Assembly (NCBI RefSeq): GCF_000384335.2
Contig: NZ_KQ031382.1
Span: 62,001 to 126,000 of the forward strand
DNA length: 64,000 nt
Origin: Hyphomicrobium sp. 99
Lineage (GTDB): Bacteria > Pseudomonadota > Alphaproteobacteria > Rhizobiales > Hyphomicrobiaceae
Reading direction: 5' to 3'
The translations under genes and the position numbers were made by a program. Shown here one piece after another: positions 27,706 to 49,359 of this stretch. Below the pieces are notes generated by a model, which did no database searches, had not been told where the DNA came from, and saw only the letters and a program-made list of their open reading frames with translations. Numbering within the stretch: the stretch's first letter is position 1; every line of letters starts with the position of its first letter.

Positions 27706-30006
27706 GTGGGAAACGTGACATCGTTTTTTTCGGAATCTTGGGCGAAAGCGCTTCGTCGTAAGCCGGTGCTGCACGCCGTTGCCGCTTTCGGCACAACTCT
27801 GGCGGCGGCCGGCATCTTCCCATCATCGATCGGGCACGCGACCGAAAAAGCGGAAGCGGCGCAGCGGCCACCCCTCGTGATGCAGGTCTTTGTCACCACA
27901 AGAAACGACGACTGCTATGACAACGGGCAATTGAAAGCTATCAAGCGCCTCACAACGCTCGCCCAGCACCGCATCAATCGCGAGGGCGGAATAGCCGGCC
28001 GCAAGATTGTCGTGAACATCCTCGACGATCAGCGTTCTCAAGAGAACACGACGGCAAACTTGGCGACTGCGATTGCCGATCCGCTGACGATTGCAATGAT
28101 CGGCCTGTCGAACGCGACGCGCGCCAAAGCGGCCTTCGATGCGAACGGCAAAGATCTTAAAGCGAGTGGCATCCCATTCGTGTCGGACATCTCCGTGACC
28201 GACATCATAAGAGACTATCCGAACGTCTTCACGACACGCGCCGCCGAGGACGAGGAGCGCATGCCGGTTATTGCCGAATTCGTGAAGGAGTCGCATTTCG
28301 AGCGGCCCGCATTCATCGGCATTCAATCCCTGTTGGCGAGCACCAATCTCGGCGATAGCCTGAACAAGTATCTCGGCGGCCTTGCCGCCGACCAGCGTTT
28401 GAAACTCGTGGCGGACAAACTCGATCCCGGCGAAGTTGCCGCCGCGGTCGCCGATCTCAAATCCAAGAACGTCGGAATCGTTTTCTTGAGCGTCGGCGGC
28501 GACCGCATGAAAGACGTCGTGAAGCAGTTTCAGGACGCAGGCTTCACGCCACCGCTGTTCGTGACGGGCCGCATCGAGACACTGGCGGGTCAGGGCGCAG
28601 ACGCCTACCCGAACGATGTCTATCAGCTTGCCTGGGACGGACTGCCGGACGTCTATAGCGAGAGACTGCGCGAGCTGATTTGGAGCACGGCGTCTCCTGC
28701 CCAATGGATCTTCGAGGGCAAGAAGAATGCTGGAGCTCCGGGCTGGAAGGACGGAACCTGCAAACCGCGAGATGAGGATATCCCACTCAACGCTCTCGAT
28801 AATGACAACATGCGCGCCCTTTCCGTGGGCTCACAATACGCCGATATCGTCGGCCTGATCGCGGAGGCGGCACGCTCGGCGGAGGCCACCGCCGAAATAC
28901 CCGACCTCCGCAAGCTGATCGTCCAGCAGCTGCAGACCGCTTATGCGTCCGGGCGCGGAATATTCAAGGGACGGTTCGACAATTGGTCGTTCCAGCCTGC
29001 ATCTCGCGCCGCAGCCCGAACGCCGCTGATCCTCATGCTGCCGCACGGGCGAGGTCAAACACAGCTCGCTCCGTTGCAATTCCTGCATTTGCGCAATCAA
29101 AGTCTTCAGCGGATCGATACGCTTTATGCCGACATCGACCTCATTCACGCGGAGCGTATCGACGATACCGACAAGACGTTCTTCGCCGACTTTTATCTTT
29201 CGATGAACGATCGCGGCGGCGCATCAATCGAGCAGATCGAATTCGCGAACGCCTACCTCGAGCCGGGCTCGAACGATCGCCAGATAACCGTGCGCGCCCT
29301 GCACGACGGCAGTCAAAGTGCTGCCTACCCCGATCACATGAAGATCTATCAGGTGACGGGCAAGTTCGTGTATTCGCCGGATCTGAGAAACTATCCTTTC
29401 GATACGCAGCGTTTCGCGATCGATCTCAGGCCGAAGAACGGCGGCAACCCGTTTATCGTGCAACCGCCGCCGCAAAAAGTACGGGATCACGTAGTGACGG
29501 TCGATGGCTGGGACCCGAAGGACCAATATGTCGGATACGATCAGGACTTCGTGCGCACGGTCGACGCGCAAACACTCGAGCCAAGCGTGTTCCCCTTTTA
29601 TAAGGCGAGCTTCGTGTGGCTGATGAAACGCGAAACAACGGATTACTTTCTCAGAGTCGTCGTGCCGTTGGGCTTCATCCTGATCATCGCGTATTTGTCG
29701 ATTTTCATCTCGACGCATCACTTCGAGGCGATCGTGACGATACAGGTAACGGCGTTGCTCTCGGCAGTCGCGTTGTATCTCGCTCTACCGAAGCTCGACG
29801 CAAATACCGAAACGCTCTCGGACCAGATGTTCCTGTTCACATACCTGATGTTGAGCGTGATCATCGCCATTACGATCGCGCGCGAGAACAAACGGATCGA
29901 GCCGATCCGATGGTTGAGAAAAAGTCTCGTCTTCCTTCACATCATCGCGGTTCCAGCAGCGGTCGGGGCGATGGCCTACTACGTCTACCTTGCGAGCACC
30001 GCGTAA
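27706..30006 (+). CDS. Pentameric ligand-gated ion channel fused to a periplasmic-binding-protein domain
   Basis: A 766-residue inner-membrane protein. A signal-type segment (about 20-45) is followed by a type I periplasmic-binding domain of the Leu/Ile/Val receptor kind (about 58-430: INREGGIAGRKIVVNILDDQ, KASGIPFVSDISVTD). Then comes a beta-sandwich of the pLGIC ligand-binding fold (about 470-645) with the Pro-loop YPFDTQ (563-568), and four helices: M1 648-669 with Pro654, M2 673-694, M3 706-725, M4 739-763. M2 aligns without gaps to GLIC: Glu674 at -2', then T2', T6', L9', A13', L16'. A Glu at -2' predicts a cation-selective pore. The start codon is GTG (27706 or 27715). It stands alone, convergent with a LysR gene. 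Confidence 0.9.
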   Translation: MGNVTSFFSESWAKALRRKPVLHAVAAFGTTLAAAGIFPSSIGHATEKAEAAQRPPLVMQVFVTTRNDDCYDNGQLKAIKRLTTLAQHRINREGGIAGRKIVVNILDDQRSQENTTANLATAIADPLTIAMIGLSNATRAKAAFDANGKDLKASGIPFVSDISVTDIIRDYPNVFTTRAAEDEERMPVIAEFVKESHFERPAFIGIQSLLASTNLGDSLNKYLGGLAADQRLKLVADKLDPGEVAAAVADLKSKNVGIVFLSVGGDRMKDVVKQFQDAGFTPPLFVTGRIETLAGQGADAYPNDVYQLAWDGLPDVYSERLRELIWSTASPAQWIFEGKKNAGAPGWKDGTCKPRDEDIPLNALDNDNMRALSVGSQYADIVGLIAEAARSAEATAEIPDLRKLIVQQLQTAYASGRGIFKGRFDNWSFQPASRAAARTPLILMLPHGRGQTQLAPLQFLHLRNQSLQRIDTLYADIDLIHAERIDDTDKTFFADFYLSMNDRGGASIEQIEFANAYLEPGSNDRQITVRALHDGSQSAAYPDHMKIYQVTGKFVYSPDLRNYPFDTQRFAIDLRPKNGGNPFIVQPPPQKVRDHVVTVDGWDPKDQYVGYDQDFVRTVDAQTLEPSVFPFYKASFVWLMKRETTDYFLRVVVPLGFILIIAYLSIFISTHHFEAIVTIQVTALLSAVALYLALPKLDANTETLSDQMFLFTYLMLSVIIAITIARENKRIEPIRWLRKSLVFLHIIAVPAAVGAMAYYVYLASTA

Positions 30007-30025: not shown

Positions 30026-30955
30026 TCAGGAAAATATGCTTTCCGGCCGAACCTTTTTTAAGACTTCAGTGAAGGCTGCCACCGCCGGATTGCGAGACTG
30101 CGCCGCCCCCTCGCGCCCGCTGAATACAGCGGCTAACTCCCACTTAATGGCGGGCTTTCTGAGCGTCGTTATTCCGATCCTCGGCACAGTGGAACTCGCA
30201 GCCCGCGCTGTGACGAACGTGCCTGGTACGAGAGCAATTCCGAAACCACGCGCGACGAGATCGAGAAGGACCTGCACGTCGCCGACTTCCAGCGCCGTCT
30301 TGCGCGAAACGTTGATCGACGCGAACGCCCGATCGACGATACGCCGTGTTCCCTGATCGAGCTGAAAATCGACGAAAGTCTCGCCGGCGAGACTGTGAAG
30401 GGAAACGCATTGACGTTCGGCGAGCGGATGATCCAGGGGATGGGCCACGATCAGACGGTCGGATGCAATCGGCATCGAGACGATCTCGCGGTTCTTTTCA
30501 TAAAGGGGAAGGAAAGCCAGATCGATGCTGCCGTCCTTCACCTTGCCCATCAGGTTCGCCGCTGTGCTGTGGCAAAGACGAATTTCGACGTCGGGGTGCA
30601 GCGCGTGGAATTCCCCGAGCAACAGCGGAAGGTCGAAAAAGGCATTGAGACTGGCACACGTCCCGAGGCTCAACGTTCCCCGCTCCAGACCATTGATCGC
30701 CGCGACCGCGCGCCGCGCGTCGTGGACACCCGCGATGATCTGAAGCGCTCTCTCGTAGAGAACGCGTCCTGCGATGGTCAGCTCGACCCGGCGCGTCGTC
30801 CGCACGAAAAGAGCAGCGCCCATTTCCTGCTCTAAAGCCCGAATAGAGGCTGAAAGCCCGGATTGAACAATATTCATTCTCCGGGCGGCCCGGGTGAAAT
30901 GCTGCTCTTCCGCCGCAGCAACGAAATGTTCGAGTTGCTTGAGGTCCATGCCCAC
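30026..30955 (-). CDS. LysR-family transcriptional regulator
   Basis: A 309-residue LysR regulator: winged helix-turn-helix at residues 1-62 (QHFTRAARRMNIVQSGLSASIRALEQEMGAALF) and a type 2 periplasmic-binding-like effector domain to the end. The usual start is MDLKQLEHF, two codons after the first ATG. It is divergent from the RND efflux operon at 31222 with 266 bp between, the classic layout for a LysR controlling its neighbour, so it probably regulates that pump. It converges with the ion-channel gene with only 19 bp between stops. Confidence 0.9.
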   Translation of the reverse strand: MGMDLKQLEHFVAAAEEQHFTRAARRMNIVQSGLSASIRALEQEMGAALFVRTTRRVELTIAGRVLYERALQIIAGVHDARRAVAAINGLERGTLSLGTCASLNAFFDLPLLLGEFHALHPDVEIRLCHSTAANLMGKVKDGSIDLAFLPLYEKNREIVSMPIASDRLIVAHPLDHPLAERQCVSLHSLAGETFVDFQLDQGTRRIVDRAFASINVSRKTALEVGDVQVLLDLVARGFGIALVPGTFVTARAASSTVPRIGITTLRKPAIKWELAAVFSGREGAAQSRNPAVAAFTEVLKKVRPESIFS

Positions 30956-31221
30956 CCGGCGATTAATCTATATAATCGAACAATAGCATCCTAACATACT
31001 ATTGGACAGATGAGCCGTGGACCCCCATTTGTGGCAATCGGGGCCATTCGTCGAGTCTCTTGGGCTGACGTGATGAATTGGCGACAGGTTTTAAGACCGT
31101 GCGCTTTCGTCACCCATCGAAGACGCGTTTCGACAGACGGAACCCAAAACTTCGTCAGTTTCAGGCTGGGGACGATAGCTGGTTCCAAATTTCTAGCCGG
31201 CGATGTGGAGATCTCTGAAGC

Positions 31222-34200
31222 ATGGCTGCATTGGTGCGAATAGCGCTGCGGTCGCCGTACACGTTTGTCGTGTTGGCGTTGCTCATCCTGCTCACCGGCG
31301 GCTTGGCGGCTTTGCGCACGCCAATCGATATCTTCCCCGATATTCGTATCCCTGTCATCGCCACCGTTTGGCAATATACAGGCCTTCCCCCCGATGAGAT
31401 GGCCGGCCGGATAACTACGCCGTTCGAGCGCGTCCTGACGACGACCGTCAACGACATCGAGCATATCGAGGCGAATTCGTATAACGGCATCGGCGTCGTC
31501 AAGATCTTCTTCCAGCCGGGCGCCGATATCCGCACTGCCAACGCGCAGGTGACGGCGGTATCGCAGACGCTGCTGAAGCAGCTGCCGCCCGGTTCGACGC
31601 CGCCGCTCATCCTCAACTACAGCGCCTCGACCGTGCCGATCGTGCAGCTGGCACTCGGCGGCGATGGTCTGACCGAACAGAACCTATCCGACCTCGCCAT
31701 GAACATGATCCGGACGCGGCTCGTGACCGTGCCGGGGGCAGCCGTGCCCTACCCGTTCGGCGGCAAGACGCGGCAGATCCAGATCGATCTCGACGATACG
31801 GCCCTCCATGCAAAGGGCCTCTCTGCTCAAGACGTCTCGAACGCCTTCGCCGCGCAGAACCTGATCAATCCGGTCGGCACCCAAAAAATCGGCGGCACCG
31901 AATATACGATGCAGCTGAACAATGCGCCGTCCGACATCAACGCCTTGGGCGACTTGCCGATCAAAGCGGTCAACGGCGCGATGGTCTATATCCGCGACGT
32001 CGCCCACGTCCGCGACGGAAATCCTCCGCAACAGAACATCGTGCACGTCAACGGCAACCGCTCGGTGCTGCTGTCGGTCCTGAAAAACGGCGCGGTTTCC
32101 ACACTCGCCATCATCCAAGGCATCAAGGACAAACTGCAGGAAATCAAACCCGGTCTGCCCGACGCGTTGACGATCTCGCTGCTCGGCGATCAGTCCGTCT
32201 TCGTCCGCGCCGCGGTTGAAAACGTCATCCACGAAGGCGTTCTCGCCGCCGCTTTGACGAGCGTGATGATCCTTCTTTTCTTGGGCAGCGTCCGTTCGAC
32301 GATCATCATCGCGACCTCGATTCCGCTGGCCGTATTGGCCTCAGTGGCTATGCTTTCGGCGCTCGGAGAAACCCTGAACGTCATGACGCTCGGCGGCTTG
32401 GCGCTCGCCGTCGGCATTCTCGTCGACGAAGCAACGGTGACGATCGAAAACATCAACTACCATCTGGAACAGGGCAAGGACGTCGAGACCGCCATTCTCG
32501 ACGGCGCCGATCAGATCGCGACACCCGCGTTCGTGTCGATGCTTTGCATATGTATCGTCTTCGTCCCGATGTTCTTCCTCGAAGGCGTCGCGCGGTTTCT
32601 GTTCGTTCCGATGGCCGAAGCCGTCGTATTTGCCATGGTTGCATCCTTCATCCTGTCGCGCACGCTCGTGCCGACCATGGCCAAGTATCTGTTGAAGCCA
32701 CACGATCACGACGCGGCGACAAGGCCGACGCGCAATCCGTTCGCTCTGTTTCAGCGCGGCTTCGAGCATCGCTTCGAGAGAATGCGCATCGCCTATCATG
32801 ACCTGCTCGAAAGCGCGCTGGCACATCGAACGATCGTCCTGATATTCGCGTTCGGATTTATCGCAGCATCGTTCTTGTTGACGCCCTACCTCGGCCGCAA
32901 CTTCTTCCCTGCCGTCGATTCCGGCCAAATCCTGATGCATGTCCGGCTTGACGTCGGCACGCGCGTCGAGGAAAGCGCCCGGAAATTCGCGCAAATTCAA
33001 GATGCCATTCGCGAAGTCATAGCGCCGGAAGATCTGGCCGCCATGGTCGACAACATCGGCATGCCCGTCAGCGGCATCAACACGTCTTATAATAACACCG
33101 GCATGATCGGCCCGCAGGATGGCGATATCCAGGTGGCGCTGAACCACGGGCATCGCCCGACGCCCGAATATGTCAAAGAACTCCGCGACGAACTCCCGAA
33201 GCGCTTCCCCGGAGCCACCTTCTCGTTTCTGCCTGCCGATATCGTCAGTCAGATTTTGAATTTCGGCGCGCCGACGCCCATCGATCTCCAGATCAGAGGA
33301 CCGAAGCTCGGCCCGAACTTCGACTATGCCGAAAAGATTTTACGGCAGATAAAGCTGATCCCGGGCGTAGCCGACGCGCGCATCCAGCAATCGCGAGAAA
33401 ACCCGGGCTTCAAGGTGAACGTAGACCGCTCGCGCGCACAATACGTCGGCGTGACCGAGAAGGACGTCACCGCAAGCTTGAGCACGAGCCTCGCCGGAAC
33501 AAGTCAGGTGAACCCCACTTACTGGCTCAACAAGAGCAACGGCGTCACCTATCCGATCGTGATCCAGACACCGCAGTACAAGATCGACTCGCTGAGGTCT
33601 CTGGAGAACATGCCGATCACCGCCGACGGCGCGCCGGCGCCTCAAATTCTCGGGGCAGTCGCAAGTGTCGAACGCACGACGAGTAACGCCGTCGTCTCGC
33701 AATACGACATCCAGTCCATGGTTCAGATCCTGACCACGACCGAAGGGCGTGACCTCGGCGCCGTCGCCGCCGACATCCAGAAAATCGTCGATGAAACCAA
33801 AGCGGATCTTCCCAAGGGCGCAACCGCCGTTCTCCTCGGGCAGGTACGGACAATGAACGGCGCCTATGCCGGAATGTTGTTCGGTCTCCTCGGCGCCATC
33901 GTGCTTATATACCTGCTGATTGTCGTGAACTTCCAATCCTGGGGCGATCCGCTCGTGATCATCATGGCGCTTCCGGCAGCTTTGGTCGGCATTGTCTGGA
34001 TGCTATTCGTCACGGGCACGACACTGTCGGTACCCGCCTTGACCGGGGCAATCATGTGCATGGGCGTCGCAACCGCAAACGCCGTTCTGGTCGTCAGTTT
34101 CGCTCGCGAGCGCCTTGCTGAGCACGGCGATCCGATCCAAGCCGCGCTCGAGTCCGGCTACGTGCGTATCCGTCCCGTTCTGATGACGGCGCTCGCCATG

Positions 34201-34410
34201 GTGATCGGCATGGCGCCGATGGCATTGGGTCTCGGTGAAGGCGGCGAACAGAACGCCCCGCTTGGTCGCGCAGTCATTGGCGGACTTCTGTTCGCGACAG
34301 TAGCCACATTGTTCATTGTGCCAATCATTTTCAGTCTGATGCACCGGCGGAAGTCTGCCAGCTCATCGTCGCCGCAAGGTGCAGTCCCAGGAGAATTCCA
34401 TGCTGCCTGA
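31222..34410 (+). CDS. RND efflux transporter, inner-membrane pump
   Basis: A 1062-residue RND pump of the hydrophobe/amphiphile efflux type, driven by protons. It has the expected 12-helix pattern with two large periplasmic loops; N-terminal PIDIFPDIRIPVIAT and the helix-4 motif GILVDEATVTIENI are diagnostic. The proton-relay pair is Asp-Glu (LVDE) where AcrB has Asp407-Asp408; the first Asp is kept. It is followed at once by its adaptor (11-bp overlap), but no outer-membrane channel gene is nearby. The substrate is unknown; in many systems of this layout drugs or solvents are exported. Confidence 0.93.
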   Translation: MAALVRIALRSPYTFVVLALLILLTGGLAALRTPIDIFPDIRIPVIATVWQYTGLPPDEMAGRITTPFERVLTTTVNDIEHIEANSYNGIGVVKIFFQPGADIRTANAQVTAVSQTLLKQLPPGSTPPLILNYSASTVPIVQLALGGDGLTEQNLSDLAMNMIRTRLVTVPGAAVPYPFGGKTRQIQIDLDDTALHAKGLSAQDVSNAFAAQNLINPVGTQKIGGTEYTMQLNNAPSDINALGDLPIKAVNGAMVYIRDVAHVRDGNPPQQNIVHVNGNRSVLLSVLKNGAVSTLAIIQGIKDKLQEIKPGLPDALTISLLGDQSVFVRAAVENVIHEGVLAAALTSVMILLFLGSVRSTIIIATSIPLAVLASVAMLSALGETLNVMTLGGLALAVGILVDEATVTIENINYHLEQGKDVETAILDGADQIATPAFVSMLCICIVFVPMFFLEGVARFLFVPMAEAVVFAMVASFILSRTLVPTMAKYLLKPHDHDAATRPTRNPFALFQRGFEHRFERMRIAYHDLLESALAHRTIVLIFAFGFIAASFLLTPYLGRNFFPAVDSGQILMHVRLDVGTRVEESARKFAQIQDAIREVIAPEDLAAMVDNIGMPVSGINTSYNNTGMIGPQDGDIQVALNHGHRPTPEYVKELRDELPKRFPGATFSFLPADIVSQILNFGAPTPIDLQIRGPKLGPNFDYAEKILRQIKLIPGVADARIQQSRENPGFKVNVDRSRAQYVGVTEKDVTASLSTSLAGTSQVNPTYWLNKSNGVTYPIVIQTPQYKIDSLRSLENMPITADGAPAPQILGAVASVERTTSNAVVSQYDIQSMVQILTTTEGRDLGAVAADIQKIVDETKADLPKGATAVLLGQVRTMNGAYAGMLFGLLGAIVLIYLLIVVNFQSWGDPLVIIMALPAALVGIVWMLFVTGTTLSVPALTGAIMCMGVATANAVLVVSFARERLAEHGDPIQAALESGYVRIRPVLMTALAMVIGMAPMALGLGEGGEQNAPLGRAVIGGLLFATVATLFIVPIIFSLMHRRKSASSSSPQGAVPGEFHAA

Positions 34411-35614
34411 AAAGACCGCCGACAAGCCCCGGCGATCACGCTGGAAGACCCCGATCGTGGCCATCCTGTTTATCGGCGGCGCCGCTTTTCTTGCCTTCAC
34501 CGGCATTACGAGCCGCGAGCAGAGCGTCGCGCAATTGAAGAACAAATCTGCCGTCCGCGCCGTCCCGACGGTCGCCGCCTCAGTGCCCGCCATTCAGCCG
34601 AGCATCGGCTTGCTCGACCTGCCGGGCCGCTTGGACGCCTACTATCAGGCGGCGCTTTTCGCGCGCGTGAGCGGCTACGTGGCGAGCCGCAACGCCGACA
34701 TCGGCACGCACGTAAAAACGGGAGACGTTCTCGCGACGATCGATGCGCCCGATCTTGACCAGCAGCTGTCTCAGGCAGAGTCCGATCTGAATAACGCCAA
34801 GGCCAACGCCGCCCTGGCCGCCATCACAAATCAACGCTTCCAGGCGCTTTTGCCGAACAGCTACGTCACCCATCAGCAGGCCGACGAAAAGCAATCCGAC
34901 CTCGAGTCGAAGAACGCGATGGTGAAGTCCGCGCAAGCCAACGTCGATCGGCTTAAGGCGCTCACCGCTTACAAGAGCATCGTCGCGCCATTCGACGGCA
35001 TCGTGACCGTGCGCAACACCGACGTCGGGAACTTGATCAATACCGGCAGCTCGACCGGGTCGGAGATGTTTGTCGTCGCCGATGTCCATAAGCTTCGGCT
35101 CTACGTCAACGTCCCCCAGGCCTATGTCCCGATGATCCCGAACGGCACGGTCGGCGTGCTGACCGTCCCCGAGCGGCCCGGTAAAAAGTACGATGCCAAG
35201 GTTGAAGCCTCCTCTGGCGCGGTCGATGTCGCTTCCGGCACGACGCGCATGCAGCTCGTCGTCGATAATGCCGCCGGTGAACTCATGCCCGGCGCCTATG
35301 CCAGCGTTCATTTAACGGTCGGCAACAAGCACGACGTTTTGGTCATCCCGGCGAGCGCCGTCCTGTTCGATAAGGCAGGCTTACGCGTCGCGACCGTCGG
35401 CCCCGACGATAAGGTGCTCCTCAAGCAGATCACGATTGGCCGCGACATGGGCGCGACGATCGAGGTCGCCTCGGGCCTCTCTCCGGAAGACCGGGTGATC
35501 GAAAGCGCTCCCGACGGCATCGTCGATGGCGACCGCGTCAACGTCAAGGAACGGCCGAGTTCCTCGACGGCACCTTCGTCGTCAAATGGACCCACTCCGC
35601 CGAACAAAGGCTGA
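34400..35614 (+). CDS. RND efflux periplasmic adaptor (HlyD/AcrA-like)
   Basis: A 404-residue membrane-fusion protein. The ATG at 34400 has an AGGAG site and overlaps the pump gene by 11 bp; a longer frame has no site. A single N-terminal membrane anchor (TPIVAILFIGGAAFLAFTG) is followed by a biotinyl-lipoyl half-motif (GYVASRNADIGTHVKTGDVLATID), a coiled-coil hairpin (about 120-190), the second lipoyl half (SIVAPFDGIVTVRNTDVGNLI) and beta-barrel domains. The tail is Pro/Ser-rich. The gene lies downstream of the pump, opposite to the usual adaptor-first order. It should link the pump to an outer-membrane channel encoded elsewhere. Confidence 0.93.
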   Translation: MLPEKTADKPRRSRWKTPIVAILFIGGAAFLAFTGITSREQSVAQLKNKSAVRAVPTVAASVPAIQPSIGLLDLPGRLDAYYQAALFARVSGYVASRNADIGTHVKTGDVLATIDAPDLDQQLSQAESDLNNAKANAALAAITNQRFQALLPNSYVTHQQADEKQSDLESKNAMVKSAQANVDRLKALTAYKSIVAPFDGIVTVRNTDVGNLINTGSSTGSEMFVVADVHKLRLYVNVPQAYVPMIPNGTVGVLTVPERPGKKYDAKVEASSGAVDVASGTTRMQLVVDNAAGELMPGAYASVHLTVGNKHDVLVIPASAVLFDKAGLRVATVGPDDKVLLKQITIGRDMGATIEVASGLSPEDRVIESAPDGIVDGDRVNVKERPSSSTAPSSSNGPTPPNKG

Positions 35615-41161: not shown

Positions 41162-41214
41162 TGGTGCCGCTTGCGTGACTCGAACACGCGACCCCGTCAT
41201 TACGAATGACGTGC
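41162..41214 (-). repeat. Displaced tRNA-Thr 3' fragment (outer att site)
   Basis: 53 bp identical to positions 49820-49872. It carries the anticodon stem-loop, variable loop, T arm, acceptor 3' strand and CCA of tRNA-Thr(CGT) on the minus strand, but then diverges (GAACCC) where the D arm should begin. It is not a functional tRNA. The 232 bp between it and the integrase resemble 49642-49819 near the right border. Confidence 0.92.
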
Positions 41215-41509
41215 GAACCCACTTTTCACGTTTCTCATACACCGATCAATTTCGAATAAACACCACAGATTACGGGCAAAATCGCACCATTTCCTTGAGC
41301 GTTTCGGGTGGTATCAAATCGCAAATCGTGGTATTAAGGTGGTAGCAAAAGCTGCCGCCGTTTTGGTGTCCATCGCGCTCGCGTATCGGCGCTAAGCAAC
41401 TGATTTATCTCGACAAATCGCTCGTCGTGGCACTAGCCGGGATTCTGTGCAGACTCGAAATGCGTGGCAAGCAATTGAACTAGAACAACAATTTAACGAA
41501 TTGACCCCC

Positions 41510-42802
41510 ATGGCGAAGCTCACAAGACAGGCCATTGAGAAGGCCTACCGAAGCAGAGTTGTTGCTACCCTTTGGGATGCGGATTTGAGGGGTTTTGCTT
41601 TTCGAATTTCGCCCAAGGGCAAGGCGTCTTGGCTGGTCAAGCGTCGTCTCGGAGAGGGAGGTCGCAACGCCAAGCAGATACTTTTCGTCTTCGGGGAATA
41701 CCCGGTGATGGATCTAGATGCTGCACGAACAGAAGCCCTCAAGCTCATCGCATCAATTGCTGAAGGGGTGAACCCGCAGAACGACAAGCGGAGACTCAAG
41801 AACAAACAGCACGAGGCTTACGCCAACGGCAAACTGCGAGACGTGTTTCAGCTATGGTTTGAGAAGCACGCCAAGCCAGACACCAATCCACCCAAAGGCG
41901 CATACTGGTACGAGGTGCGCCGACGCTTCAATGTCGAGGTGATCCCAAAGCTTGGTAGCGAAACGCTTGTTGGGGACATCACGCGCAAAGACATCACCGC
42001 GCTAATCGACAACAAGGAACGCATCACAAAGTCAGGCGCTAGGCAGGTCTTCAATGCCATGCGTCCTTTCTTCAAGTGGTGTTTGTCTCGAGACATCATC
42101 CCGATTGACCCTATGGACAGCCTCACTCCGCCTGAACGCTATCAGGACCGGGACCGGGTGCTAACCGACAAGGAAATCGTTTTAGTTTGGTCTGCTGCCT
42201 CGGACTTGCCTTATCCGTGGGGGCCATATTTCAAGTTGCTACTGCTGACGCTTCAGCGTCGAGACGAAGTTGCTCAGCTTCCGTGGTCCGAACTTGATCT
42301 GGCTCGCAAGCATGAGTGGATTATTCCGGGATCACGAACAAAGAATGGGCGCGAACACCTCGTTCATCTGTCTGGTTGGGCAGTCAATCTATTCCATTCA
42401 ATGGCCGACAAAGCTGGCACCACGTATTGCTTCACGACAAAGAAAGTTGGCGACCGAGAATTTCCGATATCAGGCTTCTCGAAAGCCAAGGCAGCTATCG
42501 ATGCGAAAATCAAGAAGCTCAACGGCGGCAATCCTATACCGCCGTGGCGGGTGCACGATCTGCGTAGGACAGGAGCAACCGGCTTAGCAGGTCTCGGCAT
42601 TGCTCCACACATAACAGAGCGTATTCTCAATCACATCTCTGGTCCAGCGGTTGGCGGACTCACCGGAATTTACCAGAGGTTTGAGTTCGTGGACGAAAGA
42701 CGCGAAGCACTCAGGCGTTGGGCCAACCATATCAACGATTTGCTTCTCGAAGATATGCGAAGAGAACGGGAGGCGAATAACGTCGTGATTTTGCGAGCGT
42801 AG
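41510..42802 (+). CDS. Tyrosine-type integrase of the P4/DUF4102 family
   Basis: A 430-residue site-specific recombinase that inserts and excises the island. The N-terminal DUF4102 arm-binding domain (MAKLTRQAIEKAYRSR, LVKRRLGEGGRNAKQILFVFGEYP) is followed by a core-binding domain and the catalytic domain: Arg in LLTLQRRDEVAQLPW, HDLRRTGATGLAGLG, His in ILNHISG and Tyr in GIYQRFEF. The ATG at 41510 fits the family N-terminus; a GTG at 41447 would add 21 residues, and neither has a clear ribosome site. It lies 295 bp from the displaced att copy. Confidence 0.92.
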   Translation: MAKLTRQAIEKAYRSRVVATLWDADLRGFAFRISPKGKASWLVKRRLGEGGRNAKQILFVFGEYPVMDLDAARTEALKLIASIAEGVNPQNDKRRLKNKQHEAYANGKLRDVFQLWFEKHAKPDTNPPKGAYWYEVRRRFNVEVIPKLGSETLVGDITRKDITALIDNKERITKSGARQVFNAMRPFFKWCLSRDIIPIDPMDSLTPPERYQDRDRVLTDKEIVLVWSAASDLPYPWGPYFKLLLLTLQRRDEVAQLPWSELDLARKHEWIIPGSRTKNGREHLVHLSGWAVNLFHSMADKAGTTYCFTTKKVGDREFPISGFSKAKAAIDAKIKKLNGGNPIPPWRVHDLRRTGATGLAGLGIAPHITERILNHISGPAVGGLTGIYQRFEFVDERREALRRWANHINDLLLEDMRREREANNVVILRA

Positions 42803-42807
42803 CAACA

Positions 42808-43215
42808 TTAGCTCATGAGAGACTTTAGCGTTTGTGGCGCGACGAGTAGCAGCCAAAGAAAGACGAGAATTGCTTCAATTAAAACGAGCATTATGTAGGT
42901 GGAGATGACACTAGTTTTTTCTCGTCCAAAACCTCGATGATGAGGATACTTGTTGAAAAATTCCTCGTCAGACATCTTTTGCTCCGCAAGCAAGTTACGC
43001 CCAAAGCGGTAAGCAAATATTGGTCCGCCAAAGACAACCGCGAGTTTTCCAAGGCCTTTCACGATGTCCCCGAGCATTGAATCGAATTCGGCGCGACAAT
43101 CCTCCATCCCGCAATAGCGATCATCAAGGTCTTCCGTATATCGTTGTGCGCTGGACTCGCTTGGTGCCAAGGAGAAAACGCACAAAACACTTAGGAGCAG
43201 AATGAGTGTGCGCAT
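42808..43215 (-). CDS. Small membrane protein of unknown function
   Basis: A 135-residue protein: signal-type N-terminus (MRTLILLLSVLCVFSLAPSESSA), a mature part with two Cys (YCGMEDCRAEF), a weak hydrophobic stretch (LAVVFGGPIFAYRFG) and a clear C-terminal membrane helix (TYIMLVLIEAILVFLWLLLVA). It is convergent with the integrase (5-bp gap). No known family. Whether it belongs to the polymerase gene that diverges from it is unknown. Confidence 0.6.
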   Translation of the reverse strand: MRTLILLLSVLCVFSLAPSESSAQRYTEDLDDRYCGMEDCRAEFDSMLGDIVKGLGKLAVVFGGPIFAYRFGRNLLAEQKMSDEEFFNKYPHHRGFGREKTSVISTYIMLVLIEAILVFLWLLLVAPQTLKSLMS

Positions 43216-43458
43216 TGCTGTACCTCGCCAATTGGCCGAGGCGAAGTCTTGCGCGCCACGTGAGAAGTGAGTAGCGGTCTTTTCTGATGATCCCCGTTCA
43301 CATGAAAGATGAAACGCAATCGGACGCTAAATTGAGGTGGTGTCTGCGGTATTCCCTGGAAAATACCAAATGGCCTCTAGATGACTCAAAATTGACCCGT
43401 GGCGCCCGTCTTTATGGACGGTATCTACCCCCCGAAGAAATGGGAAAACGGGCTGTAC

Positions 43459-43494
43459 GACTCATTTTGAGTCAGCAAACGCTATTGCTAGGAT
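43459..43494 (+). promoter_or_regulatory. Predicted promoter with an overlapping palindromic operator
   Basis: TTGAGT (43467-43472) and TAGGAT (43489-43494) with a 16-bp spacer form a plausible sigma-70-type promoter 34 bp before the polymerase-like gene. The perfect 15-bp palindrome GACTCATTTTGAGTC (43459-43473) covers the -35 box, a good place for a repressor. A related half (GACTCAAAATTGA) lies at 43383-43395. Confidence 0.5.
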
Positions 43495-43527
43495 GAGGGC
43501 AAGAAAAGACAGCCTTTCGGGGGGATT

Positions 43528-45072
43528 ATGGCTCGAGCCGCTCTGAGTTCTGACGATCCGAGATTTTCGGTTGGCTTGCGCCTCGACTTGGGCCTGAGCA
43601 CAGAGTTCGCTTCCGTCGTCCAAGGAATCGTTGCGGGCATTCATGAAACGTCATCCTTGCGAAACCGACGTGACGCCCTAGCCGCAACTACGTTGGCCAC
43701 CGACATTGTCCTCGCCAATCTCCTCCGAGCCTTTCAAAGAAATAAGACACTTTATGTAGCTCTTTCGTTGAGTAGCAACTCGTACCCGAGAGGGCCGGGC
43801 AACCCTGCATCTGTCGGGTCCAGAGGTATCAGGCGCGTTGTCGAGTATCTCGCCAGTTCTCGACCTGCCTTGATACGGCTTCGACCGGGTGGCCAGTTTC
43901 GTGGCTCCGGTGGCGGCGTAATTGCTCGTCATTTTACGAGGATCCGAGCGACGGATCAGCTGATTGCCAAGTTCAATGGCGTCCTGACAGCGAGAGCTTC
44001 TGAGGGTGCACCTCGTGTTGAGGTTCACGGTCAGTCGGCGGCAAACTCGCGTTCATTCACGACCAAAGAACTTCCAATAATTCGATTGAAGTCAACTGAT
44101 GGGAAGTTGATCAGTTTCTCCGATCGAGATGAAACGAAGCAGATGCACGCCCGGCTAAAAAAATACAATGAGTTCGTCAGTCTGCAGTGGATCGATCTAC
44201 TGCTGCCAGACGAAGAATTTAAAACGGTCGTAGAGGGGCGCGTAGAAGAGGAACGCGAACTTACCGAAAAGACGGATCCTATTGTCGATCTACTCTTTCA
44301 ACGTAAACTCTACAGAGTGTTCAACAACGGTCGTTTTGACCACGGTGGAAGGTTCTATGGAGGTTGGTGGCAGCATATTCCCTCCAAGTATCGCAAGTTT
44401 ATAACGATCAATTGGACTCCCATTATCGAACTAGATTTTTCGAACATGCAAATAGCGATGCTGTACGCGATGGAAGGTCATGCCCTCGAAGGAGATGCGT
44501 ACGCGCTAGACGGGGTCAGCGCAGAATATCGCAAGTTGATAAAGCGGACGCTGCTTGCCTTGATCAATGCTGAGGGACGGATCAAAGCGCCAGCCAGCAG
44601 AGAGCGGCCGCCGGGATGGACTTGGGCAGATCTCAAAGATGCGATCAAAGAAAAACACAGTAGGATCGCGAGTCACTTCGGATCAGGAATTGGTCGTCGA
44701 CTCCAGCGCGTAGACTCAGACATCGCCGAGGATGTGATGATGTCGTTTATGGCTCGTGACGTCCTCGTGCTTCCTGTTCACGATAGTTTTCTCACGTTTC
44801 CGGGGCAGCGCGATGACTTAAAGACGGCGATGCAAACCGCTTATGTAGCTCGAATGGGTCAGAACATCGGAATAGACGCTGACCCCAGTTTCTTTGAAAC
44901 CGAGCTGTCCCCGGATGCCATTGAGCTCGATAATGAGGGGGTAAGGCCGCTCTCGGATGCAATCGATGGATATGAAAGCTCATCGGACTACGTAGCTTAC
45001 CGTAAAAGGAGGGCGGACTTTCTTGTCGGAAAGAGCGATGCCTGGAAGTTTCGATTCTACACTGGCGGCTGA
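43528..45072 (+). CDS. Stand-alone polymerase-fold protein (family-A DNA polymerase / T7-RNAP-like palm)
   Basis: A 514-residue protein with no recognised exonuclease or helicase part. The C-terminal half shows the right-hand polymerase motifs in order: a basic GRFYGGWWQHIP (274-285) before the palm; motif A IIELDFSNMQIAML with Asp303; a fingers-type motif B R-x3-K-R at 335-340 (RKLIKRTLLALIN), like T7 RNA polymerase R-x3-K-R; and motif C LPVHDSFLTFP with His418-Asp419, like HDSF in T7 RNAP and HDE in PolA. The N-terminal 220 residues are unassigned, with a Gly-rich patch (LRPGGQFRGSGGG). A GGGGGGAT ribosome site precedes the ATG. Possibly a primer, tailing or RNA-synthesising enzyme of the island, or a replication protein. 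Confidence 0.75.
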   Translation: MARAALSSDDPRFSVGLRLDLGLSTEFASVVQGIVAGIHETSSLRNRRDALAATTLATDIVLANLLRAFQRNKTLYVALSLSSNSYPRGPGNPASVGSRGIRRVVEYLASSRPALIRLRPGGQFRGSGGGVIARHFTRIRATDQLIAKFNGVLTARASEGAPRVEVHGQSAANSRSFTTKELPIIRLKSTDGKLISFSDRDETKQMHARLKKYNEFVSLQWIDLLLPDEEFKTVVEGRVEEERELTEKTDPIVDLLFQRKLYRVFNNGRFDHGGRFYGGWWQHIPSKYRKFITINWTPIIELDFSNMQIAMLYAMEGHALEGDAYALDGVSAEYRKLIKRTLLALINAEGRIKAPASRERPPGWTWADLKDAIKEKHSRIASHFGSGIGRRLQRVDSDIAEDVMMSFMARDVLVLPVHDSFLTFPGQRDDLKTAMQTAYVARMGQNIGIDADPSFFETELSPDAIELDNEGVRPLSDAIDGYESSSDYVAYRKRRADFLVGKSDAWKFRFYTGG

Positions 45073-45419
45073 AGTGTCATTAGTTATACGATCGGATTCC
45101 AATCAGGAAAAAAATGGGTGCTTCTGATATCGGTCATCAGCAGCAATGGCGCTTCACCAGGTACTCATTTGTAGGTCAAAGGAGGTCAGGCAAATAATGC
45201 ATTACGAGCAGATGATGAGCTGTCAAATTGGTTCAATCATAACCAATTGATCTATATTGTCTTTTTTATTGTTTAAGATCCAACAGCCGAGTACCGGCTT
45301 CTTTGAAGTGAGTTCTTCTTCATCGCATAACCACCATCGATCGTCTTTGCTTCTAGCGATACGCTTCAACTATCAATTGATGGGACGACTAACCCAATAC
45401 CTTCTAATGATAATACCCC
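45073..45419. other. AT-rich gap between convergent island genes
   Basis: About 350 bp, strongly AT-rich, with no gene. A perfect 8-bp inverted repeat AATTGGTT / AACCAATT (45226-45233 with 45241-45248, 7-nt loop) may be a weak terminator for the polymerase-like gene or a protein site; only a scattered T-rich tract follows it. Confidence 0.45.
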
Positions 45420-46385
45420 TCATACTGGAACCAGACCGGGCTTCAGACCGAGCTGCTCGCGGAACTCTTCCGGAATTTCCGACCAGTGCTCAATTATTAA
45501 ATCAACGAGCTGGCGACCATTGATCAGACCAATTCGAGGGAAGTTAGGGTCCAGCGCGATTTGGTGAGCAGATGCCTGATAGTCCGCTGTAGTGATGAAT
45601 GCGCCTTGCCCATCGCGAGGTATGGATTGCCTTAGTTGCTTGACGACTGAGGCCTCAATCTTTCTTCCTAATTTATAGCGTTTCGCTTGCACGAATATCC
45701 TAACCTTTGCAAGACCCGAGACATTCAGCTCGCCCCTGGCGTCGACGCCTCCGTCTCCCACTTTTCCGGTTACTTCAGATCCTTCAAACCCTAGTGCCGC
45801 TAGAAGATGTCCCGTGAGGATTTCAAACTCTTTATCGTCGAGCTCAAGAATTTGGTTTAAGACGGTGCCATAAGGATCGTACGGCGAAGATTCCGAATTT
45901 GTGACCAGGCTCCCTTTTCCGATCGCAGCGACAAATTCGTCGTGCTGAGCAACCCGAAAGACAGTAAGAGACGAAGCCAAAGTTCGCTGAAGGGGGACTG
46001 AAAGCGTCGCGCGCGGCAAGGGCTTTTCCGTCCACCGCACTCGCAACCGATGAGGGAAAGGGCAATTTGGATCGCCAGCCTGGAAATAATACGCATTCGG
46101 ATCGACCTGGGCCCAAAAAAGATTGTTAGAATCGGATCCCGGCGTAACGACAAAGTCGTCAGCGCGAATCTCAAATCGGAACCGAGCGATCTGTCCTACC
46201 TGCTGTCCCACAACTAAGTTGCTGTCGTTTGGATAGGCCGCTCGATAAAGGAGCAAAAGCTGTTCGCGGACCGTCACTCGCGACAAATCCTCTAGCTGAT
46301 CCCACCCGATTGCAACGTAGCCACCTTGAATGAAGGCTTTGGTGTACATTCCAGATTCAGCGCGAACGCACCACACTTTGTTCAT
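45420..46385 (-). CDS. Mrr-like restriction endonuclease
   Basis: A 321-residue putative type IV restriction enzyme. The catalytic half (about 180-321) has the Mrr/PD-(D/E)xK pattern: E-F-E-I-L-T-G-H-L-L-A-A-L-G-F helix, Asp215 in DGGVDARGEL and QAK (233-235) in FVQAKRYK, followed by a QLRQSIPRDGQGAFITTADY element. The N-terminal half (VWCVRAESGMYTKAFIQGGYVAIGW) looks like the DNA-reader domain found with such nucleases. It should cut incoming, probably modified, DNA. It reads away from the HNH gene as the second of two leftward nucleases (105-bp gap). Confidence 0.85.
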   Translation of the reverse strand: MNKVWCVRAESGMYTKAFIQGGYVAIGWDQLEDLSRVTVREQLLLLYRAAYPNDSNLVVGQQVGQIARFRFEIRADDFVVTPGSDSNNLFWAQVDPNAYYFQAGDPNCPFPHRLRVRWTEKPLPRATLSVPLQRTLASSLTVFRVAQHDEFVAAIGKGSLVTNSESSPYDPYGTVLNQILELDDKEFEILTGHLLAALGFEGSEVTGKVGDGGVDARGELNVSGLAKVRIFVQAKRYKLGRKIEASVVKQLRQSIPRDGQGAFITTADYQASAHQIALDPNFPRIGLINGRQLVDLIIEHWSEIPEEFREQLGLKPGLVPV

Positions 46386-46489
46386 TTCAAATGCCCCAGT
46401 ACGATAAATTCATCTGAAAACTCCTATTGAAGTCGTCCCCGGTAAACTCGGGAATAGTGCGTTACGCAGCGCACTCACCGTTAAATCAA

Positions 46490-47428
46490 TTAGCGATCGA
46501 GGAGAAGCTTGAGTCCCGCAAGATTTGATGGATCATCTAGTCTATGGATCATCCGATGGCAGTTCGCGCAAAGCACCGCAAAATCCGTAGAAATGTTGTA
46601 AGCTACGGTTTCGCCTTCACTCAGTGTCGCTAGGGGTCGAAGATGGTGTGCTTCTATGAAACCTTCTCCGATTGCCCCGTACATGATTTTGAAATCGAAA
46701 CGACATGCTTGACAGATTGTACCGTGAAATTGCTTCACCTCAGCACCAACCCTTGGATTGCGTTCAATCCTCAGGTGCATCTGGTAACGTCGAATTTCTA
46801 GTAGCTCGGTTTGCTTCTCACTTTCTTTCGGTGATCCTAACGGATCTAACTCTGGCGCCAAACCTCCCCGAAAAGTGAGGGCTAAGTAAGTTCTGGTTAT
46901 TCGATGCAAATCGGCGACGAGTTCGCTTTCTTTCGGAAGGTCGTCTATTGGATAAGTGCGACCAAACACATGTCCTGCTTCATACGCACGAGGCAATGAC
47001 AGTTTAGACCCCAATTCAATGACCTTCTGATCAAAGAGCTCAACGTGATCGGCGATTCGAGCGCGCATCAAGTCTGCTCTAGTCCGCAATACGCTTAACC
47101 CATTGCTCCCATATTCTTGAAGTACAGCTGTAGCCCCCTGATTGAGCGACAGAACAAGTTCTCCCCGGTCGGGGGCAAAAAGATAGACGACATAGTAGCC
47201 GGTCGTCGCACCCTCGGTAACGATGGGATCGAACACTCCTACCCAGGGAATAGCGGCCCAATTGCCTGCTCCGGCACTTGCCTTTATGGAAAGAAAAAAA
47301 TCGCCCAATGAAAATTGGACGGAGTTTCTAAGTTCAGATCGAATGTATTTAGCTATCGGATGATCGGTGAACTTTTCCTCTCGGGCACGAATGAGACTTG
47401 TTCCGACCTTCAATAATTCTTCCCGCAT
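46490..47428 (-). CDS. McrB-N-type plus HNH endonuclease (putative type IV restriction)
   Basis: A 312-residue protein. The N-terminal domain (about 15-190) has the MrcB_N/DUF3578 pattern: WAAIPWVGVFDPIVTEGATTGYYVVYLFAPD, the modified-cytosine reader of McrB-like enzymes. The C-terminal HNH nuclease (about 235-300) has Cys239 and Cys242 (CQACRF), His261-His262 (IEAHHLRPL), Cys287/Cys290 (LCANCHRMIHR). The combination resembles ScoMcrA-type enzymes that cut methylated or phosphorothioated DNA. A defence role is very likely; base specificity is unknown. Confidence 0.87.
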   Translation of the reverse strand: MREELLKVGTSLIRAREEKFTDHPIAKYIRSELRNSVQFSLGDFFLSIKASAGAGNWAAIPWVGVFDPIVTEGATTGYYVVYLFAPDRGELVLSLNQGATAVLQEYGSNGLSVLRTRADLMRARIADHVELFDQKVIELGSKLSLPRAYEAGHVFGRTYPIDDLPKESELVADLHRITRTYLALTFRGGLAPELDPLGSPKESEKQTELLEIRRYQMHLRIERNPRVGAEVKQFHGTICQACRFDFKIMYGAIGEGFIEAHHLRPLATLSEGETVAYNISTDFAVLCANCHRMIHRLDDPSNLAGLKLLLDR

Positions 47429-47725
47429 GAGGGCTCCCTCGATCGTCGCGATCGCAGAATTTCTGCTAGCAAGATTCGCGAGGAAATTCCTGATGCCTTA
47501 GAGTACTCTTTCCTCCTGTAGAGGCCAGGACATCCTTCTTAGCTGACGCTCGCTCAACAGCGTGCTTCGCCGAAGAAGAACACGTGCTGAAGTTTCTCGC
47601 CCAGTTTGAAGGCGAGCTTATCGACCCGGATGAAGGGCCAAGGTGGCCTGGAAAGGTTCGTCGAAAATAGTTAGTGTTGGTCGCTTGATAAACTATCCAC
47701 GTCATGGCTAGCCGTAAGCCATCAC
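47429..47725. other. Gap in the island, with a possible coding remnant on the plus strand
   Basis: About 300 bp. On the plus strand an open frame without a start, ending at 47670, reads EEHVLKFLAQFEGELIDPDE and then GPRWPGKVRRK; its sensible composition suggests the tail of a lost gene. It is too short to name. No promoter or terminator was identified. Confidence 0.25.
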
Positions 47726-48319
47726 TCAGACCGAATCATCCTGAATGCGATCGCTCAGAAAATATATGCCGTAAAGCGAGACTATGAAGATGTTGGCGAG
47801 CAGCCAGAAAAAACAATACCTTCCTACGATCCATAAAAGTTTATAGCCGCAGGCATTACATTTCTCGTCACAAGCGGAGACGAAGAATTCGCAAAACGGC
47901 AAAGCAAATACTATCAAGAGCGCTATTGCAGATAGATATGCAAATAGATAGCAGACGAATTGCCTTCGGCTCACCATTTTAGGAACTAACCTACCGGCGT
48001 CGTTTGACCATCTCGACAGCTGTGCGGGTTCGCCTCGCAACGGTTGGTCTAGGAACTTACGTTCCATCGAGGCGACCGCCGCGAGAGCCGCAATAAAGAA
48101 AGCAGCGAGTAGCTCAAAAAACTTTGAAAACCTTTCGGCGAACTGCGTCGTCCCAAAAAAATCGGGATTGCCCAAGAGAAACCAGTGAATGAAAAATAGA
48201 ATAGTGCCGAGGATGGTCGGAGCGACAATGTCGATGAATCTTTTGGATCTTAGCCAGCCGCTGCCTACCTCGACGAAAAGATAGTTGAACGGGCTTAGCA
48301 ACTGTCTCAAGAACCACAT
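47726..48319 (-). CDS. Four-helix membrane protein, partner of the 48322-49359 gene
   Basis: A 197-residue protein with four membrane helices: IVAPTILGTILFFIHWFLLG, FFELLAAFFIAALAAVASM, FVCYLFAYLSAIALLIVFALPFCEFFV, and LLWIVGRYCFFWLLANIFIVSLYGIYFL. The ATG (MWFLRQLLSPF) begins 2 bp after the upstream stop, with GGAAG inside the upstream gene, so translation is coupled. Cytosolic loops hold a basic/aromatic patch (MERKFLDQPLRGEPAQLSRW). Such small helical membrane proteins act as effectors in several two-gene defence systems. No family was recognised; the role is inferred. Confidence 0.7.
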   Translation of the reverse strand: MWFLRQLLSPFNYLFVEVGSGWLRSKRFIDIVAPTILGTILFFIHWFLLGNPDFFGTTQFAERFSKFFELLAAFFIAALAAVASMERKFLDQPLRGEPAQLSRWSNDAGRLVPKMVSRRQFVCYLFAYLSAIALLIVFALPFCEFFVSACDEKCNACGYKLLWIVGRYCFFWLLANIFIVSLYGIYFLSDRIQDDSV

Positions 48320-48321
48320 AT

Positions 48322-49359
48322 TTACGACTTCCAATTTTCGTCGTTCGCATGCACTTCTTGCATCTTCTTTATCACTTCCGGATTGCACTCACTTTCGCAT
48401 TGCTCCAAAGGCTTTTCAAAGCCTTTGATTATTGCAGTGCGTGCGTAGAGCGTGCTGGCAGCCTCAAGTTTGTCCAGTGCGAAAGTTGGACTCGCACTAC
48501 CTTTCCCTCCGTTTAAACCCTCAATATGAAACTGGACTTCATCGTATTTTTCTTCCCGTGCGAAGCCTGGAAGCCAATCATGAATCCACTTCAGGATCCT
48601 CTTCGGATCGCGTTCGTAATCGATCGATAGCGCGAGATCGCGTTTGACTTTCTTCACTCTCACATAATCATCTGGCCCGGCGAATTCGTTGTTGCGAGCA
48701 ATCAGTGTTATGCTTGTCACGCGGCCATCGTGAATGTCTTTTTCTAAACTCTGCCCGGGATGATGCGCGAATTCGATACTTTCGTGAAACTTGACCCGAC
48801 CAGGTTTTCCCAGGTTACGCTCGAATACTTTGCCGGCTCGCCTTGCCTCGCTACGCAACAGCGAATTCAGGAAGCGGGTGACGAGCGTTCTTGAAACGTT
48901 GGCGACTTTTTCAATCGTGACTCTGTGGCCACCTGATTTATCGGGCTCATGAGAAAATATTACGTGGCAGGAGTGTCCCGGCGCCTCATCCTTTCGAGGC
49001 TTGGCAATTCGTACCGCGCGTTCTTTTGAATGGACGAACGCCGGGCTTGAAATGCTTGTGTCGCCGCGCGTTATGAGCAAGATGGTCTGGTTATTTTCGC
49101 TGTCCTCTCGAAAGTCAGAAATATAAACAACGTCGCCGAGATCGTGATTTGTTATGCTTGCGGCGTCCGGTGTTAGTCCAACGGTGTCGTCGACTACGCC
49201 ATCGCTGTCATTGAGGGCTGCGAATGCACGATCCGTCAGGTAAAGCCCCTTCAATATGTTCATCGTTTCAATAAAGGAAGTCTTCGGCGCATCTTCGGGG
49301 CGCATCAAAATCCTTGCACTGATAAGATAAACCGCACGTTCAAATTTCAGCGATGCCAT
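48322..49359 (-). CDS. Unrecognised cytosolic protein, first gene of an island pair
   Basis: A 345-residue soluble protein with no family I recognise. The ATG (MASLKFERAVYLISARIL) has GAAGGTG upstream; an ATG 7 codons earlier has none. The first 180 residues look beta-rich (DVVYISDFREDSENNQTILLITRGD, HVIFSHEPDKSGGHRVTIEKV); the rest is mixed alpha/beta with a basic region (NSLLRSEARRAGKVFERNLGKPGRVKF, about 161-187) that could bind nucleic acid. No catalytic signature was seen. Translationally linked to the four-helix membrane protein behind it, so the pair probably acts together. Confidence 0.65.
   Translation of the reverse strand: MASLKFERAVYLISARILMRPEDAPKTSFIETMNILKGLYLTDRAFAALNDSDGVVDDTVGLTPDAASITNHDLGDVVYISDFREDSENNQTILLITRGDTSISSPAFVHSKERAVRIAKPRKDEAPGHSCHVIFSHEPDKSGGHRVTIEKVANVSRTLVTRFLNSLLRSEARRAGKVFERNLGKPGRVKFHESIEFAHHPGQSLEKDIHDGRVTSITLIARNNEFAGPDDYVRVKKVKRDLALSIDYERDPKRILKWIHDWLPGFAREEKYDEVQFHIEGLNGGKGSASPTFALDKLEAASTLYARTAIIKGFEKPLEQCESECNPEVIKKMQEVHANDENWKS

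Follow-up and report, generated by a model that had tools for sequence, protein, structure and literature searches.

The window analysed here is a stretch of 64,000 nucleotides from Hyphomicrobium sp. 99 (contig NZ_KQ031382.1, positions 62,001 to 126,000). A preliminary description had placed at 27706-30006 of this window a gene for a single 766-residue protein in which a periplasmic-binding-protein (PBP) domain is joined to a pentameric ligand-gated ion channel (pLGIC). This open reading frame (ORF) is indeed present on the forward strand, with 766 amino acids from GTG 27706. We prefer the start at GTG 27715, which yields 763 amino acids, follows a better ribosome-binding-like stretch (gggtggga) and is also the start of the database protein P0001. 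Residue numbers below refer to the 763-residue protein; those of the preliminary description are higher by three. The features of the gene are:

27715..30006, + strand: PBP-pLGIC fusion gene, 763 aa (766 aa from the alternative GTG 27706)
27715..27849, + strand: signal peptide region, residues 1-45 (RRK, then a hydrophobic stretch, by eye)
27868..29034, + strand: type I PBP domain, residues 52-440
27913..27915, + strand: Cys67, invariant in 80 of 80 relatives
28705..29019, + strand: well-conserved C-terminal stretch of the PBP domain, residues 331-435 (W331..GW..C349..GRG..WSF..R431)
28759..28761, + strand: Cys349, invariant in 80 of 80 relatives
29074..29631, + strand: pLGIC extracellular beta-sandwich, residues 454-639 (profile and model; also the sandwich profile A7 of the MscS fusions described below)
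29392..29409, + strand: Pro-loop YPFDTQ, residues 560-565
29635..29706, + strand: transmembrane (TM) helix M1, residues 641-664 (predicted model)
29713..29784, + strand: TM helix M2, the pore helix, residues 667-690 (predicted model, GLIC alignment)
29725..29727, + strand: Glu671 at -2' (E in 77, D in 3 of 80 relatives), predicted to form a ring selecting cations
29812..29886, + strand: TM helix M3, residues 700-724 (predicted model)
29908..30000, + strand: TM helix M4, residues 732-762 (predicted model)

The upstream neighbours of the channel gene include an SDR. Downstream, positions 30026-35614 hold a LysR regulator (minus strand, by Pfam) that is convergent with the channel gene, followed by an RND pump and adaptor pair (plus strand, by eye). 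Homologues of the neighbouring alpha/beta hydrolase, SDR, LysR regulator and RND pair were found in only 8-11 of 50 loci, mostly the closest ones, and none of these neighbours points to a pathway or an operon partner. The window also contains an integrated island (41162-49872; GC about 0.49-0.53) with a perfect 53-bp direct repeat at 41162-41214 and 49820-49872. The second copy is the end of a tRNA-Thr(CGT) gene (49820-49895, minus strand), and the other copy adjoins an integrase-like ORF (41447-42802, plus strand, by eye). The island encodes restriction ORFs of the Mrr and MrcB/HNH types (45420-46385 and 46490-47428, minus strand) and a 514-residue ORF (43528-45072, plus strand) with polymerase-like motifs by eye and no Pfam match at E<=1e-3.

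The type I PBP domain, previously placed at about residues 58-430, was recovered as a Peripla_BP_6 match (E 4e-14, residues 86-301 in the 766-residue numbering, 53.4 bits against a cut-off of 31.7) and as a fold match to PBPs over residues 52-452. According to the predicted model and a structure search, this N-terminal domain is an alpha/beta PBP. The signal peptide region in front of it shows low pLDDT and the lowest pairwise mean identity among all parts (0.14). Of the two Pfam assignments foreseen for the protein, Peripla_BP_6 was thus obtained, but Neur_chan_LBD and Neur_chan_memb gave no match in the window protein at E<=1, and a match to the NCBIfam model LIC (E 0.03) was below the cut-off. 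This miss appears to be a limit of the curated models, since the similarity to pLGICs is significant by other means. A single-sequence phmmer search retrieved ELIC-type chains at E 4.7e-7 and GLIC from 1.4e-4, and at E<0.01 a profile of the window family (A3) found matches in 281 different PDB sequences. The latter matches span the sandwich and the helices, with best E-values of 3.1e-21 for ELIC chains and 1.9e-17 for GLIC, so that the similarity to pLGICs claimed for the C-terminal part was detected. The single-chain model agrees with the profile matches in showing a beta-sandwich followed by four TM helices, as is typical of pLGICs. The Pro-loop lies where it had been reported (563-568 in the earlier numbering). 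P, D and Q of this loop are present in 62 of 62 ORFs (loci L001-L062, some being the same gene from two sources), and the available portion of Jaiteh 2016 (PMC4795631) calls the Pro-loop proline, here P561, absolutely conserved. VIA and Foldseek searches with the whole model gave PBP-type entries among the matches listed; because the PBP domain fills such lists, the test of the channel fold relied on a sequence profile rather than on structure search. By its sequence, the C-terminal half is a pLGIC.

M2 reads HFEAIVTIQVTALLSAVALYLALPK. Its alignment with the GLIC pore, reported earlier as gap-free, is so from -2' to about 17'; beyond this point four residues are missing at the outer end, and the loop after M2 is longer than in GLIC. 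The model ends M2 at 17', so that the predicted helix falls short of that of GLIC by roughly a turn. The glutamate reported at -2' is Glu671, and this position is acidic in all 80 family members (counts of 80 refer to alignment A2 minus the five distant rows L065-L069). T2' is kept in 77 of these, and T6', L9' and A13' in all 80. Glu occupies -2' in GLIC as well (GLIC numbering). An acidic residue at -2' makes a cation pore by the usual rules, and by these rules the window protein is predicted to have one. A receptor that conducts weakly or not at all, and that signals by contact or serves solute delivery, could account for the shorter predicted M2. It would also agree with the open-licence papers listed, among which no functional study of a PBP-pLGIC and no current was found, although such absence is not proof. 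However, the pore-lining residues E-2', T2', T6', L9' and A13' are almost invariant, M1-M3 shows the highest conservation of the stretches compared (pairwise identity 0.75) and Pfam detects no cytoplasmic output domain. We therefore regard this reading as quite improbable.

In sister clades of PBP-pLGICs (the L119 and L107 groups), Pro and Arg occur near -2' to 0' and Glu is absent. Pro and Arg at these positions resemble anion channels, and the M2 segments of these groups suggest that anion-type pores exist within one PBP-pLGIC fusion family.

The fusion is not a new architecture, because it has been known since 2004. As far as the consulted text of Tasneem et al. 2004 (PMC549065) goes, PBP-I-pLGIC (ART-LGIC) fusions were described in Magnetospirillum magnetotacticum and Bradyrhizobium japonicum and a role as chemotactic receptors was proposed for them, which agrees with the remark in the preliminary description that such fusions had been noted before. 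By that description, these alphaproteobacterial proteins likewise comprise an N-terminal PBP-I domain, a sandwich and four helices, and in the window protein, too, Pfam, profile and model place a PBP-I domain directly N-terminal to the sandwich and four TM helices. A 2022 review (PMC9221113) notes a resemblance to PBPs for many of the N-terminal domains found in prokaryotic pLGICs. The likeness to the Tasneem fusions is one of architecture; the window gene is a member of a divergent lineage that occurs in almost every sampled genome of its genus and, judged from its sequence, represents a divergent clade of a known fusion.

Indeed, 21 of 22 genomes of the genus matched (19 with full-length genes, one split and one fragment), the single miss being a 71% complete genome, and 26 of 41 genomes of relatives matched overall. 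Among 8000 protein candidates scored, 374 were homologues at E<=1e-3. Two M2 peptide patterns applied to named genome contigs led to 57 loci, comprising 5 distant unfused channels and 52 close relatives whose titles read Hyphomicrobium, Filomicrobium, Rhodomicrobium, Devosia-labelled MAGs, or only Rhizobiales or Proteobacteria. The copy of H. facile is L015. A single-sequence search of 385 genomes of the class gave 2 matches only and profile A3 was used instead, which matched 52 of 397 genomes in a scan of the order and 44 of 398 in a scan of the phylum, MscS-type sandwiches included. The viral contigs searched contained no relative.

Of the three domains, the PBP has the lowest pairwise identity (0.50), followed by the sandwich (0.63) and the TM part (0.66); within the latter, M4 alone (0.42) falls below the PBP. 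In seven species pairs, dN/dS ranged over 0.10-0.19 (PBP), 0.04-0.09 (sandwich) and 0.05-0.12 (TM part), with one saturated value (the L016 sandwich) set aside and several dS values above 1. All three domains thus bear the sequence signature of purifying selection. Together, the homologue count and the low dN/dS show that the ORF did not arise by chance. A mis-joined or frame-shifted gene pair, or a pseudogene, might have been suspected from database names, as the copies, where named, are called ABC-transporter substrate-binding, extracellular ligand-binding receptor, periplasmic binding or hypothetical proteins, and never channels among the 120 matches listed. This idea has effectively been refuted, however, by the single open frame in 19 genomes of the genus plus many other loci and by dN/dS values well below 1.

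Peripla_BP_6 was detected in 21 of 31 diverse channel ORFs scanned. Of the 10 without it, six were checked individually (L110, L111, L112, L114, L142 and L073); for L143, L071, L072 and L074 its lack follows from count and length. Three other genomes of the genus carry unfused pLGICs (L072:3774-4907:+, L073:4337-5566:- and L074:4236-5375:+; ORFs of 378-410 aa) that belong to a channel clade distant from that of the fusions. L110, L111, L112, L114 and L142 are pLGIC-like ORFs with N-terminal extensions of about 200-340 residues that match no Pfam family, and other sensor domains may therefore be fused to pLGICs in these proteins.

A channel tree of 55 rows contains a branch with all 34 PBP-labelled rows on the same side; its support of 94/96 (96% of 200 bootstraps) is just under the tool's own mark. 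This split fits one PBP-pLGIC fusion event. A single event is argued against by the long branch of the window PBP in the PBP tree (see below) and by the weakness of a 62-row tree that includes the long rows L071 and L110, where the split has a support of 57/83 and the unfused L071 falls in the PBP half. The 55-row tree lacks these two long branches and five rows removed by thinning (L042, L104, L121, L123 and L139). Its PBP labels for L122, L125, L126, L135, L136 and L138 rest on count, length or place, and L095 is cut by its contig. ORF length is the basis of its unfused labels for L065-L069, L097-L099, L102, the second L140 ORF, L141, L144 and L145. A naive labelling of the 62-row tree as 'fused versus short' was rejected; it needed 6 changes because other N-terminal extensions are not PBPs.

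The ligand contacts of LIVBP, which we take to be Ser79, Thr102, Tyr202 and Glu226, have at least in part been lost. In the profile alignment to 2liv, Thr102 corresponds to V161 (Val in 51 and Ile in 22 of 80) and Tyr202 to G261 (Gly in 77 of 80); Ser79, placed via the 4n0q alignment and by eye, corresponds to A134 (Ser in 59 of 80). Glu226 lies past the end of the alignment, and within residues 284-288 of the window protein, Arg286 is kept in 68 and an acidic residue 288 in 67 of 80. Hence, at least two contacts of LIV-type amino-acid binding are lost. Polar residues are kept at S157 (72), S160 (72), R175 (73), E181 (72) and R182 (73 of 80), and these side chains would face the ligand cleft. 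As amino-acid contacts have changed while cleft-side polar residues are kept, the PBP appears to have retained ligand binding with a specificity for something other than amino acids. Many of its best-kept residues fall in the stretch 331-435 adjoining the sandwich, which makes this stretch a candidate coupling element, and Cys67 and Cys349 may form a disulfide.

Since some specificity residues have changed, ligand binding could also have been lost. The PBP would then be a scaffold for assembly or an anchor, and channel opening would be triggered at the sandwich, whether by a ligand, by protons or by divalents, in the manner of ELIC, GLIC or DeCLIC. The N-terminal domain of AMPA receptors is largely such an assembly scaffold or anchor. 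This possibility gains from the Val/Ile and Gly at the Thr102 and Tyr202 equivalents, from the concentration of well-kept residues next to the sandwich and from the PBP being the least conserved of the three domains. It is less easily reconciled with the purifying selection on the PBP (dN/dS 0.10-0.19), the polar residues kept near the expected cleft in 72-73 of 80 relatives, and the fact that PBP and sandwich also stay together in the MscS fusions described next. Altogether, we consider a PBP that no longer binds a ligand unlikely.

The phylum scan returned ORFs of about 1000 amino acids that matched only the first part of the sandwich. When nine ORFs were scanned with Pfam, all five sandwich-matching ones combined Peripla_BP_6 with MS_channel_2nd (MscS), and so did 4 of six further ORFs (L198-L201). 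The former five are:

L176:1505-4684, + strand: PBP-sandwich-MscS ORF
L177:919-4035, + strand: PBP-sandwich-MscS ORF
L178:1799-4870, - strand: PBP-sandwich-MscS ORF
L179:532-4035, + strand: PBP-sandwich-MscS ORF
L181:1874-4726, - strand: PBP-sandwich-MscS ORF

L179 and L201 have an additional C-terminal cNMP-binding domain. The same genomes encode other odd PBP pairings, namely TPR with a PBP/LppC-like domain and DctP with a PBP in one protein (L165:502-2676:+, L183:855-3026:+). Alignment A5 holds 12 full-length MscS fusions, of which five are Pfam-scanned and the remaining seven are placed by their alignment over the MscS part. In the protein database, 169 relatives of the MscS fusions were found at E<=1e-3 among 7995 candidates scored, and both Pfam domains were present in 120 of 120 among the matches listed (proteins P0138-P0257). 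Most of these listed proteins are without a name; where given, names are mechanosensitive channel, potassium efflux system, and ABC-transporter or branched-chain amino-acid binding protein, and a few JGI entries bear a double name covering both parts. Named sources among the matches listed are Magnetococcales, Azospirillum, other Rhodospirillales and gammaproteobacteria. No description of a PBP-sandwich-MscS fusion was found among the open-licence papers listed, which is not proof of absence. On sequence grounds, what is new here is that the pair of PBP and sandwich is shared with MscS channels of other Pseudomonadota.

The relationship of the two sandwiches is supported by a profile-profile comparison, in which the middle stretch of the MscS fusions scored 98.3 (E 7.5e-12) against the pLGIC sandwich. 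The reversed control scored 18.0, the best of 20 column shuffles reached E 0.18, and the PBP and MscS parts alone scored 18.6 and 24.7, respectively. The pLGIC sandwich model matched 101 of the 120 listed MscS fusions (i-E<=1e-3 for the set of 120) and 0 reversed sequences. Conversely, profile A7, built from MscS-type sandwiches only, had a single hit in the 4.1 Mb genome of the window, at 29077-29376 within the fusion gene (E 3.9e-4); of 384 other genomes, 7 had matches. Because profile A7 finds no PDB chain at E<=1, the pLGIC origin of the MscS-type sandwich rests on the profile-profile comparison, the trees and the reciprocal matches.

In the PBP tree, the PBPs of 9 MscS and 9 pLGIC fusions fall into a single clade (99/97) that excludes 16 stand-alone PBPs, the latter chosen from the loci found rather than comprising all matches. 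The pLGIC PBPs of L107 and L109 group with an MscS-fused one (97/97), and a clade of pLGIC PBPs without the MscS ones was rejected (p 0.011); MscS-fused PBPs as one clade were not (p 0.135). The window clade sits on a long branch outside the clade joining the other fused PBPs, and one clade of all was not rejected (p 0.417). In the sandwich tree, the 9 MscS rows form one clade (99/95) with L107 and L109 nearest (92/80). This tree is less decisive than the PBP tree, since a PBP-pLGIC clade without MscS was not rejected (p 0.156).

The Pro-loop differs between the two pores. All 99 pLGIC ORFs examined (62, 16 and 21, with duplicates counted) have its Pro and Asp. Among the 120 listed MscS fusions, Asp is replaced by Gly in 68 of 71 aligned, so that PFD has become PYG in most, and Pro is kept in 55 of 75 aligned. 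The change points to the Pro-loop being an adaptor to the pLGIC pore; the retained prolines count against this reading. The predicted model of an MscS fusion is poor (pLDDT 64.4), with a strand order resembling that of the window protein, and Foldseek returned Leu-binding proteins and E. coli MscS among the matches listed for it. As the same pair of domains occurs on MscS pores with an altered pLGIC coupling loop, PBP and sandwich would constitute a self-contained sensor. We consider it likely that they form one portable solute-sensing cassette gating two unrelated pores, pLGIC and MscS.

Several known systems share parts of this design. GLIC and ELIC have sandwich, Pro-loop and helices in common with the window protein, but lack a PBP domain. 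DeCLIC, in 2022 the sole family member with a solved domain of this kind as far as the available text of PMC9897478 states, is also a prokaryotic pLGIC with extra N-terminal domains, but according to the same text these are two beta-rich lobes, whereas that of the window protein is an alpha/beta PBP; PMC12664993 is a later DeCLIC paper. The PBP-sandwich-MscS proteins match the window protein in both sensor domains and in their order, and differ in their MscS pore, their altered Pro-loop and, in L179 and L201, the cNMP-binding domain. Ionotropic glutamate receptors (GluK2, AMPA) are tetramers that contain a PBP-II domain as their second PBP and whose unrelated pore is like that of an inverted K channel. 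No Pfam match to PBP-II or a K-channel-like domain was found in the window protein, and the pore of these receptors is unrelated to its C-terminal half, which is a pLGIC. Their domain order is given in the consulted part of PMC549065.

Domain order, pLGIC identity, PBP fold and the acidic -2' residue are supported by sequence and model. On this basis, we think it fairly likely that the window protein is the subunit of a homopentameric pLGIC cation channel gated by its PBP, and the preliminary description was thus right in its observation and partly supported in its interpretation. The pentamer would sit in the inner membrane, its periplasmic beta-sandwich topped by five PBP domains. The two PBP lobes would be closed by a small solute, which is probably no alpha-amino acid, and the movement would pass via residues 331-435 into the first sandwich strand. 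The Pro-loop would then push the M2-M3 loop, the pore would open and cations would enter, so that solute concentration would be read out as ion flux. The low conservation of the PBP and its changed specificity residues count against such gating by a PBP ligand.

If PBP-gated, the window protein would be a natural design that parallels the glutamate receptors, with a periplasmic binding protein as the potential driver of a Cys-loop-type channel, and environmental bacteria supply many homologues for structural work. If PBP and sandwich indeed form a cassette, the extracellular domain of nerve receptors would not be bound to its own pore, and the pairing with MscS would allow the sensing parts of the sandwich to be separated from those that open the pore. 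Bacteria would then own ligand-gated MscS channels with an extracellular domain of the neurotransmitter-receptor type, and some channels annotated as mechanosensitive would be chemosensory.
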